Assembly: GCA_022563885.1 (NCBI GenBank)
Contig: JADFMM010000003.1
Location: 1-64,000 of the forward strand
Direction: 5' to 3'
Length of the DNA stretch: 64,000 nucleotides
Origin: Planctomycetota bacterium
Lineage (GTDB): Bacteria > Planctomycetota > Phycisphaerae > Sedimentisphaerales > Anaerobacaceae
The notes below the pieces were generated by a model. The model was given only the letters and a program-made list of their open reading frames with translations, was not told the origin of the DNA and ran no database searches. Of this stretch, positions 19,460-55,407 are shown piece after piece. The position numbers and the translations under genes were made by a program. Numbering within the stretch: position 1 is the stretch's first letter; each line of letters opens with the position of its first letter.

Positions 19460-21505
19460 TCAAGTAGAAAGGCTCGCCTTGACTCGGTCGTAGCTCCGCA
19501 ACAGTTCTGCAACACTCCAGGCCTGGGCGAAACAGCCCTTGGGCTGCTGCGGTTCGTCGCCGTCGAAAATCTCGGCGACGCTGCCTAGACATCCCTCTTG
19601 ACTGATGTGACTGATGAGAGGAGCGATGAATTTGTACGCTTCTCTCTTAGTGGTTTCGTTGGGGCCGTGGACCTTAAGATAGGCGTCCACAAAGCCACCG
19701 ATGAGATAGGGCCAGACCGTGCCCTGATGATAGGCGCCGTCTCGGTCCCACTGCGGCCCCTGGTATCTTCCTCTGTACGCGACATCCAGGGGACTGAGTG
19801 TTCTCAGTCCGTAGGGCGTCAGAAGATGCGTTTCTACGGCCGTCAGGATGGAGAGTTGTTGGCGGTAGGACAGCGGGGGGGTGAACGGCAGTGCGAGCGC
19901 CAGCACCTGGTTGGGACGCAGGCTTGCGTCCATCACCCCATCCGGGTAGATCGTGTCATTGAGGTGTCCCGTCTCTTCGTTCCAGAAGAGGGCACAGAAG
20001 CTGTTTCCGATTCGTTCGGCCCAAGATTCATAGTGTCGTGCGGCCTGGCGACTGCGCCCCGCGAAGTAGTTGGCAAGCGCACTGATTGCATTGTACCAGA
20101 GGGCATTGATTTCAACCGCTTTCCCATGCCGCGGTGTAAAGGCCACACCGTCGCACTTCGCATCCATCCAGGTCAGCTGCGTGTCGCAGTCGCCTCCTGT
20201 GATGAGGTCGTCTTCATCTGCCCGGATGTCGTAGCGGGTGCCGTGCAGATAGGCATCCACGATGCAGCGGATGACGGGCAGCAGTTTCTTATCGAACGTC
20301 TCGGCATCATCGCTGGCGCCGAGGTACTGAAACGCGGCGTTGACAAACCACAGGGAAGCATCGATACTATTGAAATGGGTGATGTTTTCGCGATCATCGA
20401 AACGATTGGGAACCATCCCTCGGTCAACGACCTCAGCAAAGGTCGTTAGCACGGACTTTGCTTCGCCAAATCGGTTGTTGACGAGTAGCAGGCCGGGCAA
20501 GGAAATGAACGCGTCCCTTCCCCAGTCCGCAAACCAAGGATATCCGGCCAAGATGGTGGCTTGATCGGATTTAGAGCCGGCACGGTTGACGACAAACTGG
20601 TCAGCGGCCAGACAGAGCGTCAACTCTGTGTCACTGGCGGGCTTGGCCGTCTTGAGCGTCTGCTCCTGATGCGTCGTGAGTTCCTCCAGGAGTCGGACCA
20701 GATCCATGTGCTTACCGGATTTGCGTGAGATCTCCCGGCCGAAAGTCGCCCAAAAAACTAGGGTGGTCGGTTCGGTAAGCCGGTATCGGTAGGAGCCTGG
20801 GCTCCAGAGATCTTCGCTGGCCGCCTGACCCCGTTGCCTGTTTTTTTCGTAGGTAAAGTTGAACCACCACTTGGGATCACTGACGAACTCTGCCTCTGGG
20901 CAACTCAAGAGGAGTTGACCCCTTTCCTGCTCCTGGTCGGGGTACAGAATCAATTGCCCCCTCTCGTGGGGCTGGTTCTCCAGCGGAGCGCGGGCGTCCT
21001 GCAGCTCGTGGAAACCCCGGATCGCCACGAAGGGCTTAAGGGTCAGGTCTACCGCCGTATCCAGACGGTGGAAGGCGTAGGTGCAGGCGACGGTGTCACT
21101 GTCAGGCGCCAGATAGATGGACTTGGTCATATCGCATTTGTCGAACCCGTACTCAAAGTGGACGCCGATGTCCTGGCTGAAACGGTTTAGATACTTGAGG
21201 CTGTCATTCTCGACCTCCTCGCCAAACTGAAAGGTGGCGAGATTCACGGTCACATCGTCCATGACAATTTGTTCAAGGCACTGCGACAGGGCCACGACGC
21301 GGTTCGTAGGCGGCGTGAGAGACCCCACCAGCAGTCCGTGGTAGCTAAGGGTGTTGCAGCAGGCAACGGTCGAAGCGATGTAGCTACCGCGTCTGTTTGT
21401 CAGCAACCATTCCTTGGCCAACAGTTCACCGATGGATAGGTTCTTCGTAGCGAGGGAGGTCAGTTCAACGTGTCGTTTTTTGTCGAGGGTTACCACGTGT
21501 GTCAT
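19460..21505 (-). CDS. Glycogen debranching enzyme (amylo-alpha-1,6-glucosidase)
   Basis: The 681-residue protein has the archaeal/bacterial-type debranching architecture: an N-terminal beta domain (KEWLLTNRRGSYIASTVACCNTLSYHGLLV, conserved G-Y/S-H-G) and a C-terminal (alpha/alpha)6 barrel starting with the signature GYPWFADWGRDAFISLPGL. Conserved acidic residues recur in GGDCDTQLTWMDAK and GPQWDRDGAYHQGTVWPYL. The enzyme hydrolyses alpha-1,6 branch points of glycogen-like glucans in the cytoplasm. The GH57 and GT4 genes directly upstream on the same strand (32 bases to GH57) complete an alpha-glucan unit. Confidence 0.93.
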   Translation of the reverse strand: MTHVVTLDKKRHVELTSLATKNLSIGELLAKEWLLTNRRGSYIASTVACCNTLSYHGLLVGSLTPPTNRVVALSQCLEQIVMDDVTVNLATFQFGEEVENDSLKYLNRFSQDIGVHFEYGFDKCDMTKSIYLAPDSDTVACTYAFHRLDTAVDLTLKPFVAIRGFHELQDARAPLENQPHERGQLILYPDQEQERGQLLLSCPEAEFVSDPKWWFNFTYEKNRQRGQAASEDLWSPGSYRYRLTEPTTLVFWATFGREISRKSGKHMDLVRLLEELTTHQEQTLKTAKPASDTELTLCLAADQFVVNRAGSKSDQATILAGYPWFADWGRDAFISLPGLLLVNNRFGEAKSVLTTFAEVVDRGMVPNRFDDRENITHFNSIDASLWFVNAAFQYLGASDDAETFDKKLLPVIRCIVDAYLHGTRYDIRADEDDLITGGDCDTQLTWMDAKCDGVAFTPRHGKAVEINALWYNAISALANYFAGRSRQAARHYESWAERIGNSFCALFWNEETGHLNDTIYPDGVMDASLRPNQVLALALPFTPPLSYRQQLSILTAVETHLLTPYGLRTLSPLDVAYRGRYQGPQWDRDGAYHQGTVWPYLIGGFVDAYLKVHGPNETTKREAYKFIAPLISHISQEGCLGSVAEIFDGDEPQQPKGCFAQAWSVAELLRSYDRVKASLST

Positions 21506-21537: not shown

Positions 21538-22785
21538 TCAGTTTGCCGGGACGTGCGATTCGCCTTTCCTGCCTCGCGAGGTCAGTTCAATTGTTTCGAA
21601 CTGGGCCGCCGCCGCACAGCGGCCACGAAGATTATCCAATACGTTCATGAAATTGATGTAGGAGTCGTAGGGCGAATCGTAAGGATTAAAGTACTTGTGA
21701 ACATCGCCGTCCGCAAAGTACTTGGTGCACATATAGTAGAAGTGGTCGGACACCTGAAGTTTGCGCCAGTCGCTGAGGATGTCCGGGTCTCTACTGGCCC
21801 GGACCGTCCTTTCCAGCCGGTAGAGTTCATGGATGGCATTGGATTGCATGGCATTGCCTAGCCAGGCGGAGAGGTCACGTTCGGTGTCTGCCCAGCTAAT
21901 CAGGTGGGGCACATCGATCACGTCCATGGCCTCATAGGCGTGAATGACTTCACTCGGGGTCTTGAAACTGTTGTCTGAGTGGCGAAGCACGCTCTCGGGA
22001 AGATGGGAAAGAAAGTCAAAGATCCCGGTGTCTGCCCACTGGTGTTCGCCAAAGGTTTCATAGTCCATGAACAGGTTAATGACCTGGCCGTTGCCATTCG
22101 CATCATCGATCCAACTGGCAAATTTTTCGGCTGTCAGGGGCCACTGGCTCCAATCTCGATTGGAAAAGCGAAACGCAATATCGTCACTCAGCGCATAGTT
22201 CTTCAGAAGGAGCTTTAGGTTGTCACAGCCCTGGGGACGGTAGACGAAATTGGGGCTGCGGGACCCCAGGATATGGTCTGCCCCTTCGGCGATCACACCA
22301 TCAAATCGGCCGGTGGTGTCCAGCGCGGCGGCCAGTTGGTTATTGTAGATCAACTCCGTATTGCGGAACACGCGCGGCGTCTGGCCAAACAGGTATTCGA
22401 TCATCTTGGTATGTTTGTCGACCTGCTCGGTGAACTCCACCTGGGAGTAGAGAAAGCTGAGGCTGTGGTAATAGGTTTCTCCCAGGAATTCCACACAGCC
22501 GGTAGCCGCCAGGGCATCAAAGGTGCTCACGACCTCGGGGCAGTAGGCCTCAAACTGCTCAAGCACCACGCCGGTGATGCTGTAGGCGATTCTAAACCGT
22601 CCGTCGTACTTACGAATAAGATCCAAGAGCAGCCGATTGGCAGGCAGATAGCACTTGTGCGCTACCTTTCGACAAATGGAGGCGTTCTTGTGGTCGTCGA
22701 AGTAGTTGTCATTGGAATCGAATACGGTGTAGTGCCGCAACCGCATCGGTTGATGCACCTGGAAGTAGAAACAAACTGACGGCAT
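21538..22785 (-). CDS. Glycoside hydrolase family 57 (alpha-amylase / glucanotransferase)
   Basis: The 415-residue protein opens with CFYFQVHQPMRLR, the GH57 region I (HQP). Glu144 in FRNTELIYNN fits the GH57 nucleophile and Asp241 in MDYETFGEHQW fits the acid/base. GH57 enzymes act on alpha-1,4 glucans as amylases, 4-alpha-glucanotransferases or branching enzymes; this compact form without the long C-terminal helical domain is more like the alpha-amylase subgroup found beside debranching enzymes. It has no signal peptide, so it acts in the cytoplasm with the neighbouring debranching enzyme and glycosyltransferase. Confidence 0.9.
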   Translation of the reverse strand: MPSVCFYFQVHQPMRLRHYTVFDSNDNYFDDHKNASICRKVAHKCYLPANRLLLDLIRKYDGRFRIAYSITGVVLEQFEAYCPEVVSTFDALAATGCVEFLGETYYHSLSFLYSQVEFTEQVDKHTKMIEYLFGQTPRVFRNTELIYNNQLAAALDTTGRFDGVIAEGADHILGSRSPNFVYRPQGCDNLKLLLKNYALSDDIAFRFSNRDWSQWPLTAEKFASWIDDANGNGQVINLFMDYETFGEHQWADTGIFDFLSHLPESVLRHSDNSFKTPSEVIHAYEAMDVIDVPHLISWADTERDLSAWLGNAMQSNAIHELYRLERTVRASRDPDILSDWRKLQVSDHFYYMCTKYFADGDVHKYFNPYDSPYDSYINFMNVLDNLRGRCAAAAQFETIELTSRGRKGESHVPAN

Positions 22786-22901: not shown

Positions 22902-24215
22902 TCAGGCGGGCACCAACATCTCTTCGTAGATACTGGCGCACTTCCTTGCACTGTCCGTCCAACGCAGCTTCCTTATCTCAAAGTTGCCATGATCTTTAAG
23001 TGTGGACCGCAACTGTGGGTACTTGAGTACTGCAACAATCTTGTTCGCAATTTCATCGACGTCCCAGAAGTCCACTTTTAACGCATGCGTTAAAACCTCC
23101 GAGACACCGCTCTGCTTGCTGATGATGACCGGGACGTCATGATCGAGGGCCTCGAGGGGGGCGATGCCAAATGGCTCGGAGACAGAGGGCATGACGTAGA
23201 GATCGGCCATTTTATAGATTTGTCTGACTTCGTCACCCCGCAGGAATCCTGTGAACAAGACCTTTGAGCCGATGCCAAGGTCCGCGGCGAGTTCGATCGT
23301 TCTGTGCATGAGATCGCCGGATCCGGCCATGACAAATTTGACATTGTCCATGACGCCGAGCACTTTTTGGGCGGCCTGGAGGAAGTATTCGGGGCCTTTT
23401 TGCATGGTAATGCGCCCCAGGAAGAGGACGATTTTTTCGTCGCTCCGGATACGGGTGTCAGAAAACGCCCGGTCGTCGTTCCGTTCGACGCCATTGTAGA
23501 TGACGTCGACCTTTTCGCCGGGAATCCCATAGCGATTGATGACGATGTTGCGGGTGCGGCAGCTGACGGCAAAGACTCTGTGTGCTCGTTCCATGCCGGC
23601 CCGTTCGATATCATAGATCATCTGGTTCACATGCTCACCGCTCCGATCAAACTCGGTCGAGTGCACGTGTACAACGAGGGGTTTCCCGGTTGTGGCCGCG
23701 GCCGCCATCCCCGCGGGATAGGTCATCCAGTCATGAGCGTGAATGATGTCAAATTCCTCTCGAAGGGCCAGTTCTGCCGCGATTGCCGCATAGCGCTGTA
23801 CCTCACCATACATGTCCCGACCGTAGTGTTCCCCGCTGCCGAAATGCTCTGCGCCTTCTCCCAGAGAGGAGAACAGCTCATGGTGATTGGTGCGGATCCG
23901 CTCCAACCGATCGAGGTATTCTTGCGGTGTCGAGTAGGGCTCCAACGTGGAAGGTATCCAGCGGAACTGGACATTCTTGAATCCGGGCGGGCCGGTCTCT
24001 GTTTCGTGACGGGACTCGGGGGTGAGCAGCTTGACATGAGTCGCGTAGTGACCGTGGACCTTCTTGGGCAGGACGAACGTAACCTTTATTCCCAGGGAGT
24101 CCATTGCTCGAGTCAATCCATAGCAGGCTGTCCCCAGTCCACCACTGATGAAGGGCGGGAACTCCCAACCGAGCATGAACACCCGAATTGACTCCCCCTC
24201 AGGATTCAGACTCAT
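22902..24215 (-). CDS. Glycosyltransferase family 4, glycogen-synthase-like
   Basis: The 437-residue GT-B enzyme begins with MLGWEFPPFISGGLGTACYGL, the glycogen-synthase-like donor loop (GGLG), has an HAHDWMTYPAG acceptor-side motif, and ends with the GT4 nucleotide-sugar motif EPFGIAPLEALDHDVPVI (E-x7-E pair). Together with the following GH57 and debranching enzyme it probably builds or extends an intracellular alpha-1,4-glucan from an NDP-glucose donor. Whether it is a true glycogen synthase or a maltooligosaccharide synthase is open. The first gene of the trio, it is preceded by a long spacer that should hold the promoter. Confidence 0.88.
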   Translation of the reverse strand: MSLNPEGESIRVFMLGWEFPPFISGGLGTACYGLTRAMDSLGIKVTFVLPKKVHGHYATHVKLLTPESRHETETGPPGFKNVQFRWIPSTLEPYSTPQEYLDRLERIRTNHHELFSSLGEGAEHFGSGEHYGRDMYGEVQRYAAIAAELALREEFDIIHAHDWMTYPAGMAAAATTGKPLVVHVHSTEFDRSGEHVNQMIYDIERAGMERAHRVFAVSCRTRNIVINRYGIPGEKVDVIYNGVERNDDRAFSDTRIRSDEKIVLFLGRITMQKGPEYFLQAAQKVLGVMDNVKFVMAGSGDLMHRTIELAADLGIGSKVLFTGFLRGDEVRQIYKMADLYVMPSVSEPFGIAPLEALDHDVPVIISKQSGVSEVLTHALKVDFWDVDEIANKIVAVLKYPQLRSTLKDHGNFEIRKLRWTDSARKCASIYEEMLVPA

Positions 24216-24842: not shown

Positions 24843-25031
24843 CTACAGATCTTGAGCTTTGACAGTGCTGCGTCGATTGGCCTGAGCCCGCACAATGGCG
24901 TCATCCAGCAATTCGTAGACCTCTTCACTAATGGCGTCAATCGCCTCTGCCGAGGTCATCATGTCTTTGCTCTTGATGTAGGCCTTGATCTTGCTGGCGA
25001 CGACCAAAGACTCTCTTTGCTTCTCTGCCAT
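24843..25031 (-). CDS. Bacterial histone-fold protein (DUF1931 type)
   Basis: The 62-residue protein has the layout of bacterial single-domain histones (the DUF1931 family; HBb, as in Bdellovibrio Bd0055): helix 1 at about residues 8-20 (SLVVASKIKAYIK), loop 1 with MMTS, a long helix 2 at about 26-52 (AEAIDAISEEVYELLDDAIVRAQAN), loop 2 RRSTV, and a very short helix 3 KAQDL at the C terminus. The R-x-T-V-x-x-x-D pattern matches the Arg-Thr pair and the Asp that cap the fold in archaeal and bacterial histones. Such proteins bind and bend DNA as dimers. The ATG at 25031 has GGAG nine bases upstream. The frame is open much further but the upstream part does not resemble the family. It is divergent from an acidic protein gene. 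Confidence 0.88.
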   Translation of the reverse strand: MAEKQRESLVVASKIKAYIKSKDMMTSAEAIDAISEEVYELLDDAIVRAQANRRSTVKAQDL

Positions 25032-25345
25032 TGCATAATTCTCCATGCACGCAAATTCACCATCGGACTCGATCACAACCAAATGATCGATGTTTATCAA
25101 CTTGAGACCCTTGATTACGTCTGGCTGCGGGAATTTGCAACAAAAAAACCTCAGATACTTAATATTTATCTCCATAGGGCCGATAGGCACGAAAGTGTTT
25201 CTCTGAGGGGCTGGTGGCGGATAGCTGTCCAGGCCCTTGACATCGGAATGACCGGCTGAGAGATGCGTCGTTAGCCCGTGCGTCAACGTCTCACACTCCG
25301 GGAAGAGTGCTCTAGTCTGATAATGTTTGTCTTGGAGATGAAAAG
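25032..25345. other. 314-base divergent spacer between histone and acidic-protein genes
   Basis: This stretch separates two divergent genes and should carry both promoters. On the minus strand a weak box pair (TTGATA, 17 bases, TGTGAT) reads towards the histone gene at about 25066-25094. The open frame that continues upstream from the histone start (to 25391) has no family match and no good start signal. Confidence 0.35.
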
Positions 25346-25663
25346 ATGCGACCTTCATCACGTGAAGAGGATCCGTTTGCAGCAGAGACACATGAAAAGG
25401 AGTTCATCGCAGTGGCTGTTGTCGATGACCTGGATCTGGCCAGTAACTACAAGCAGTTGCTCGAGGACAATGACATTCCGGTGGAACTTAAGGTGGCGGA
25501 CGATGCAGACGAGGACCCATCCGTCTCAGTGGCCGTTCCTGAAGAGTACCTTGATGAAGCGCACATCGTCATCGAATCTGAGAATGTATACGAAGACTAC
25601 TTTGACATGACACTGGATGACGACCTCGAGGACTACAGTGAAGTTGCCGATGAGGACTACTGA
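25346..25663 (+). CDS. Small acidic protein with DUF2007-like fold
   Basis: The 105-residue protein has a core EFIAVAVVDDLDLASNYKQLL, then DNDIPVELKV and VSVAVPEEYLDEAHIVIES, resembling the DUF2007 putative signal-transducing domain, in which a short beta-alpha-beta-beta unit ends with a hydrophobic VPEEDLE helix. The last 25 residues are highly acidic (Asp/Glu/Tyr-rich, ending in EDY). GGAG lies eight bases before the ATG. The gene is divergent from the histone gene, and its TGA stop falls inside the inverted repeat of the mobile-looking element that follows. No function is established. Confidence 0.7.
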   Translation: MRPSSREEDPFAAETHEKEFIAVAVVDDLDLASNYKQLLEDNDIPVELKVADDADEDPSVSVAVPEEYLDEAHIVIESENVYEDYFDMTLDDDLEDYSEVADEDY

Positions 25664-25910
25664 GCGACGGATAGAAATAACTTGGACTTTTGAATGCCCA
25701 ATTGCACCCCATCTTTGACCGCTTCTCAATCGCGAAAGCGAGATCCCTCGGCTTCGCTCGGGACAGGCTCCGAACAGCTACGCCTGTGGTTTCGCTTAGG
25801 AGAGCTTGGGAGGGAAAGTTTTCTAAAAGACTTTCCCCCATCCTCGTTTCTACCAAACACGGGGCACACTTGGACCCCAATTTTCCCAACCTATTTATTG
25901 CCGATCCCTA
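25662..25910 (+). repeat. Inverted-repeat element, family A, copy 1
   Basis: One of four copies of a dispersed element in the window. Consensus ends are AGGGACCGGCAAGAAATAA on the left, and on the right, in reverse complement, AGGGATCGGCAATAAATAA. The inside holds TTGAATGCCCAATTGCACC, CTACGCCTGTGGTTTCGCT, a near-palindrome GGGAAAGTTTT/AAAAGACTTTCCC, and GGGGCACACTTGGACCCC. This copy is the longest (about 249 bases) and has an extra segment near 25740-25775. Its left end overlaps the stop codon of the preceding gene. No transposase is encoded, so it looks like a MITE or an ERIC-like intergenic unit. Confidence 0.85.
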
Positions 25911-26023: not shown

Positions 26024-26344
26024 ATGGGCGATCAAGTCAAAGAAGAGAAGAGAAAAAACCAAGAGAGGCGCGGTGTCGTAGACCGTCGGCTGAGTCTGGA
26101 TCGTAGGCGTGGTCCCGGACGCCGCCGCAGCGACGACAGAAAGTCGGCAGAGGAAGGCAACATGTCGGACGAGCAGTTCGACTTTCTGATGGCCATCGAT
26201 CACTACAAGCGAGTCAACGATCGGCCCTTTCCAACTTGGACGGAGGTGCTGGAGGTCATCAAGGCCATCGGTTATCGCAAAGTGGCAGAATCCGAACTGT
26301 CGCCATGCGACACTGACGAAGTGTTGGGTCGTTCCGGTTCTTAG
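26024..26344 (+). CDS. Small protein of unknown function, Arg-rich N terminus
   Basis: The 106-residue protein has a strongly basic first half (RRLSLDRRRGPGRRRSDDR, about residues 21-40) and a compact second half with FLMAIDHYKRVNDRPFPTWTEV and LEVIKAIGYRKVAE, which reads like a small helical domain. An AAGGATG sequence lies about nine bases before the ATG. I do not recognise the family. The basic half could bind nucleic acid, but this is only a guess. Its TAG stop overlaps the left end of a second kind of inverted-repeat element. Confidence 0.6.
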   Translation: MGDQVKEEKRKNQERRGVVDRRLSLDRRRGPGRRRSDDRKSAEEGNMSDEQFDFLMAIDHYKRVNDRPFPTWTEVLEVIKAIGYRKVAESELSPCDTDEVLGRSGS

Positions 26345-28760: not shown

Positions 28761-28983
28761 CACCGATCGGCAAGAAATTGGACAATTTTGGGTCTAAGTG
28801 TGCCCCATATTGGGTAGAAACTGAGGATGGGGGACAGTCGTTTAACAAGACTGTCCCTTCCAAGCTTTCTCAGCGAAACCACAGGCGTAGCTGTTCTACG
28901 TCGCGGAATTCGTGACTGAGAAGCGATCAACGATGGGGTGCAATTGGGCATTCGAAAGTCCAAGTTGTTTCTTGCCGGTCCCT
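28761..28983 (-). repeat. Inverted-repeat element, family A, copy 2 (reverse orientation)
   Basis: This copy is inverted relative to the other three. It reads from CCGATCGGCAAGAAATTGGAC on the left, through the GTGCCCC block, the palindromic GGGACAGTCGTTT/AACAAGACTGTCCC, the CCACAGGCGTAGC block and GGTGCAATTGGGCATTC, to CTTGCCGGTCCCT on the right. It is about 223 bases. Its arms are slightly degenerate, and it stands in open intergenic sequence between the TauE and cold-shock genes. Confidence 0.85.
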
Positions 28984-48354: not shown

Positions 48355-48540
48355 AGGGACCGGCGAGAAATAACTTGGATTTTTGAATGCCCAATTGCAC
48401 CCCACTTTTGATCGCTTCTCAATCGCGAAATTCGCGACGTAGGAGAACAGCTACGCCGGTGGTTTCGCTCAATCGGGCGCGACCCAATATGGGGTACACT
48501 TGGACCCCAAATTGTCCACCTTATTTCTTGCCGATCCCCA
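48355..48540 (+). repeat. Inverted-repeat element, family A, copy 3 (short form)
   Basis: The left end AGGGACCGGCGAGAAATAACTTGG and right end CCTTATTTCTTGCCGATCCC match the family. This copy (186 bases) lacks the central palindrome with its GGGACAGTC arms and goes directly from GGTTTCGCT to CGACCCAATATGGGG. It sits between lpxA and the GnnA-like gene. A frame that begins at a TTG in its right part (48500) reads through its end into the downstream gene without a stop. Confidence 0.85.
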
Positions 48541-48553
48541 ATCCGGAGACCTT

Positions 48554-55161: not shown

Positions 55162-55385
55162 AGGGACCGTCAAGAAATAACTTGGACTTTTGAATGCCCA
55201 ATTGCACCCATCTTTGATCGCATCTCAATCGCAAAATCCGCGAGGTAGAACGGCTACGCCTGTGGTTTCGCTAAGAACGCTTGGAAGGGACAGTCTTTTA
55301 AAAGACTGTCCCCCATCCTTGTTTCGACCCAATATGGGGCACACTTGGACCCCAAATTGTCCAACTTATTTATTGCCGATCGCCT
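55162..55385 (+). repeat. Inverted-repeat element, family A, copy 4
   Basis: This 224-base copy has clear ends (AGGGACCGTCAAGAAATAACTTGG and TTATTTATTGCCGAT) and a perfect 26-base palindrome at 55287-55312 made of GGGACAGTCTTTT and its complement. That palindrome could act as a two-way terminator for thrC and for readthrough from the other side. A frame starting at the TTG at 55345 reads out through the right end in phase with the HAD hydrolase gene. Confidence 0.88.
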
Positions 55386-55407
55386 ACCTGCTTCGAATGA
55401 GTCTCGC

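Follow-up and report, generated by a model that had tools for sequence, protein, structure and literature searches.

The window analysed here, a 64,000-nucleotide stretch of DNA from an uncultured planctomycete of class Phycisphaerae, encodes on its minus strand a 62-residue protein that is most probably a chromosomal face-to-face (FtF) alpha-3 histone, expected from its sequence and by analogy with HLp of Leptospira perolatii to assemble as a tetramer and wrap about 60 bp of DNA. The protein is a new member rather than a new kind, since FtF histones were previously known in Planctomycetota (PMC11390915) and their persistence in the phylum has been reported (PMC10627809); its conserved locus, its promoter-like element and its clean loss from one lineage are features that we did not find described. 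Within one planctomycete order, FtF histones approach core-gene status, hold a fixed position, have a conserved promoter-like element and coexist with HU.

Gene, start site and promoter-like element

The histone gene and its upstream signals lie at the following positions.
25031 to 24843, minus strand: gene for an FtF-type histone of 62 aa, ending with the stop codon 24843-24845, assigned on coding evidence, homology and signature residues
25041 to 25044, minus strand: GGAG, the ribosome binding site, lying 9 nt ahead of the histone ATG
25112 to 25150, minus strand: promoter-like element, comprising a T-tract, TTGCAA (25135-25140), a 17-nt spacer and TAATCA (25112-25117)

The open reading frame has 62 codons and translates as MAEKQRESLVVASKIKAYIKSKDMMTSAEAIDAISEEVYELLDDAIVRAQANRRSTVKAQDL, followed by the stop. 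A first-pass annotation had placed a 62-residue protein at 24843-25031, which is borne out on the minus strand; the plus-strand reading of the same interval is not this protein. In the list of open reading frames the frame extends upstream to a GTG at 25391, a longer version that was ruled out as the histone gene. The start is instead assigned to the ATG at 25031 because GGAG precedes it by 9 nt, because the N-termini of the relatives coincide with it in the alignment, and because the promoter-like element falls inside the longer frame. Relatives carry CATGGAGGA at the position equivalent to the ribosome binding site, and 74 of 75 locus copies have a Shine-Dalgarno-like motif ahead of the corresponding start. 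Between the window histone and its same-genus orthologue, dN is 0.19 and dS is 1.8 (near saturation). With dN far below dS the gene is under purifying selection, and these values, together with the 100 relatives found by scanning genome contigs, place the open reading frame far beyond chance.

The promoter-like element, which in sequence resembles a sigma-70 promoter, lies about 105 nt upstream of the histone start. Its T-tract and TTGCA recur in 67 of the 75 locus copies and in 1 of 14 other copies, with 0.05 of 75 expected by chance from mononucleotide shuffles. They are found 75-175 nt before the start, mostly at 100-118, and TTGCA is usually followed 17 nt later by an A/T-rich hexamer such as TAATAA.

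Class assignment and predicted fold

The hallmark residues of FtF histones are R48, N52, R54, T56 and D61, and bacterial dimer histones lack R48 and N52 (PMC11390915). The window histone carries the complete signature at identical numbering, HLp has all five residues, and none of the five varies among the 89 distinct relatives. Among solved structures, the top phmmer match was 9qt0 (HLp; E = 2.9e-17), with weaker matches to HBb (3.3e-7) and HTkC (2.7e-6), and it is on HLp as the best solved relative and on the five signature residues that the protein is filed as FtF. The helix-1 lysine of this class is present as K16 and is nearly invariant in alignment A1. An AlphaFold2 monomer model of moderate confidence (pLDDT 78.6, pTM 0.47) places helices at residues 3-21 and at 27-53, with a short turn over 59-61, in keeping with the short helix 2 and the helix 3 truncated to 3-4 residues of FtF histones; the sequence ends at QDL. 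The model agrees with the earlier description of a helix 2 of 26 residues and a truncated helix 3, but helix 1 is not especially short as had been stated. The motifs MMTS (residues 24-27), RRSTV (53-57) and QDL (60-62) are present as described. Foldseek searches with the lone monomer model returned no matches, as can occur for the isolated half of a handshake dimer.

As of December 2025, HBb and HLp were the sole bacterial histones characterised both structurally and functionally, and HLp (PDB 9QT0-9QT2) is a tetrameric FtF histone wrapping about 60 bp (PMC12701072). The window histone resembles it in length, fold layout and signature, and keeps its tetramer residues R49, N53 and R55 (HLp numbering is that of the window histone plus one). 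HLp residues R59, K21, K15, S14 and K17 are reported to account for 52% of its DNA-binding energy (PMC12701072); S14, K15, K17 and K21 are matched by S13, K14, K16 and K20, and R59 alone is exchanged, for K58. The two differ in phylum, in core net charge (+2 in HLp, -1 here) and in locus, HLp adjoining SMC and methionine aminopeptidase (PMC12701072). Leptospira is reported to have one histone and no HU (PMC12701072), whereas the present host has two FtF histones and four HU-family genes over the cut-off, a coexistence that contrasts with the Leptospira case. HTkC (PDB 9F2C; PMC11390915), which forms a tetramer torus in the crystal, shares the FtF class and signature but is archaeal and a weaker sequence match.

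The protein is a bacterial histone, as first proposed; its initial placement in a joint DUF1931/HBb class merged two different families and does not stand. DUF1931 proteins (PF09123; 1WWI, 1R4V) share the histone fold and a weak profile similarity, but they are pseudodimers in which two folds are fused, have roughly double the length and are reported to lack DNA-binding residues (PMC12701072). The DUF1931 profile search that had been suggested gave 15.8 bits against a gathering cut-off of 21.8 for this single fold of 62 aa, so membership was rejected, and nothing in the whole host genome matched DUF1931 over the Pfam cut-off. Of the organisms originally offered for comparison, Leptospira proved apt, HLp being the best match, and Bdellovibrio largely did not, HBb/Bd0055 (PDB 8CMP) matching far less well and having serine at 48 and aspartate at 52.

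A DNA-bending dimer of the HBb type nevertheless has points in its favour, as HBb belongs to the alpha-3 histone family and shares with the window histone the short helix 2, the truncated helix 3 and the RxTxxxxD loop. We consider such a dimer quite improbable, given that R48 and N52, absent in bacterial dimers, are invariant among the relatives and that the E-value for HLp is ten orders of magnitude better than that for HBb. As an FtF histone, two chains would form a handshake dimer, and the residues R48, N52 and R54, located where helix 2 ends and in loop 2, would join two dimers into a rigid torus, so that a homotetramer is expected by analogy. About 60 bp of DNA, as in the HLp model, would be wrapped around the outside without sequence preference and held by S13, K14, K16, K20, R53 and K58. 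Made from its own promoter, the histone would act as a nucleoid protein beside the HU-type proteins, at an abundance that we infer from HLp.

Conserved locus and neighbouring genes

Five neighbours define the histone locus in the window.
25346 to 25663, plus strand: 105-aa divergent acidic protein with a DUF2007-like domain and an acidic aromatic C-terminal tail
26024 to 26344, plus strand: 106-aa conserved protein, the second of the divergent pair, with an N-terminal half rich in arginine and without a Pfam family
22902 to 24215, minus strand: glycosyltransferase family 4 / starch-synthase-like gene (Pfam match), conserved neighbour downstream of the histone
21538 to 22785, minus strand: downstream gene in conserved position, presumably GH57-like
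19460 to 21505, minus strand: downstream gene in conserved position, which we take to be glycogen-debranching-like

The two small divergent genes adjoin the histone in 73 of 89 distinct loci, usually with the three glycogen-type genes downstream, and second histone copies lie mostly outside this locus. A single-gene organisation has been described for alpha-3 histones, and the accessible literature on histone synteny makes no mention of the planctomycete arrangement. The acidic neighbour remarked on in the first-pass annotation is real and conserved beside the histone. DUF2007 was matched by 31 of 31 acidic-neighbour members, the window member itself scoring below the cut-off, and the tail is rich in D/E with F/Y and commonly ends in [DE][DE][FY]; Foldseek returned only weak ACT-like, PrgK and SPOR fold matches for this protein (best E 0.05). 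The arginine-rich protein occurs class-wide in Phycisphaerae (124 of 150 genomes), combining a RRLGLDRRRGPGRR-type block with a conserved RPFPTWTEVLEVIKALGYRKV-type part, and is a candidate uncharacterised nucleic-acid binder.

Eukaryotic histone chaperones carry acidic aromatic motifs that are comparable in principle to the acidic tail, and one could picture the histone, the DUF2007 protein and the arginine-rich protein as a functional chromatin module, the acidic-tailed protein serving as histone chaperone or level sensor. We find this very doubtful. The co-occurrence test does not support a chaperone role, because relatives of the two upstream proteins are found in numerous histone-less Phycisphaerae genomes, including those of genus g152, which retains both. 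Conversely, three genomes of family f3 (G018, G059 and G065) have the histone and lack both upstream proteins, and no co-mention of 'DUF2007' and 'histone' was found in the papers searched.

The window also contains copies of a roughly 220-bp dispersed repeat, at 25673-25910, 28764-28983, 48355-48552 and 55162-55386. Repeats of mobile appearance had been pointed out earlier in the histone's neighbourhood, and they do belong to an element dispersed genome-wide, with 69 matching pieces at about 78-95% identity to each other; no indication of a connection with the histone was seen, and no repeat family was identified for them.

Distribution and loss

Of 80 loci retained from the scan of genome contigs, 76 are labelled as planctomycetes, two as 'uncultured bacterium', one as Deltaproteobacteria and one as Nitrospira. 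The last two (L053 and L061, respectively), on metagenome contigs, carry close FtF histones outside the conserved locus, which could reflect transfer or misbinning. In a survey of the class, the histone was present in 33 of 150 genomes, comprising 26 of 26 from the host order and 7 of 124 others. A wider set from the host order had it in 132 of 161 genomes (59 of 66 of good quality), and the FtF histone is nearly universal in this order, with most relatives carrying a single copy.

Within the host family, the histone is absent from nine genomes of genus g152, seven of them at least 90% complete. All five g152 loci examined (L109-L113) keep the histone's neighbours, and no histone-like or replacement frame was present in the gap at these loci, by which a diverged histone or replacement gene was dismissed; the genus has undergone a clean loss of the histone alone from the conserved locus. 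The T-tract is still in the gap at four of the five loci, one of which also has TTGCA, and it may for this reason also serve the divergent gene. With its neighbours intact, g152 offers a natural knock-out for studying the purpose of a bacterial FtF histone.

The locus bears on a further reading, in which the histone-fold protein has no chromosome role and acts, for example, as a local regulator of the adjacent glycogen-type genes, beside which its position is fixed in most loci. This reading is extremely improbable: the DNA-binding residues are conserved, the histone has its own promoter-like element and paralogues located elsewhere, several loci (e.g., L072, L077, L079 and L083) have the histone without the glycogen-type genes, and the histone-less genus retains those genes.

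Histone repertoire and core charge

The host genome (G000) encodes a second FtF histone on contig C374 (3985-4248; L092), extended at its N-terminus by a lysine-rich tail of some 26 residues, MAKKKAKKKVGNKKAGRKKSMGQ. Charged tails on bacterial FtF histones are already known (PMC11390915). The tailed histone differs from its orthologue in G198 by only four amino acids; the G198 contig stops short of the position of the window histone. In a histone core tree of 55 columns, the tailed copy falls in a supported clade (97/95) with tailed histones of family f3, and this grouping makes a recent origin by duplication of the window gene look unlikely; the window protein has no supported placement in the same 55 columns.

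At -1, the net charge of the window core (24846-25031) ranks lowest among the 89 relatives (mean +5.0, SD 1.5), which is unusual and may mean a lower DNA affinity. One testable reading is a specialised role as a weak or partner histone, in which the acidic core would make the protein act mainly in mixed tetramers with the tailed paralogue, tuning the grip on DNA. Consistent with this, the genome's tailed paralogue combines a core charge of +5 with the same tetramer residues, the lysines common among relatives at positions 23, 37 and 50 are replaced in the window histone, and G197, of the same genus, likewise pairs a tailless with a tailed histone. All main DNA-contact positions are retained in the window histone, however, most relatives manage with one histone, and the core charge of the same-genus orthologue is +3, so we regard a chiefly partner role as unlikely. 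The chromosomal FtF histone that we favour might itself mix with the lysine-tailed one, and with a tailless and a lysine-tailed histone present together in a single genome, the existence of mixed bacterial histone tetramers can be put to the test.
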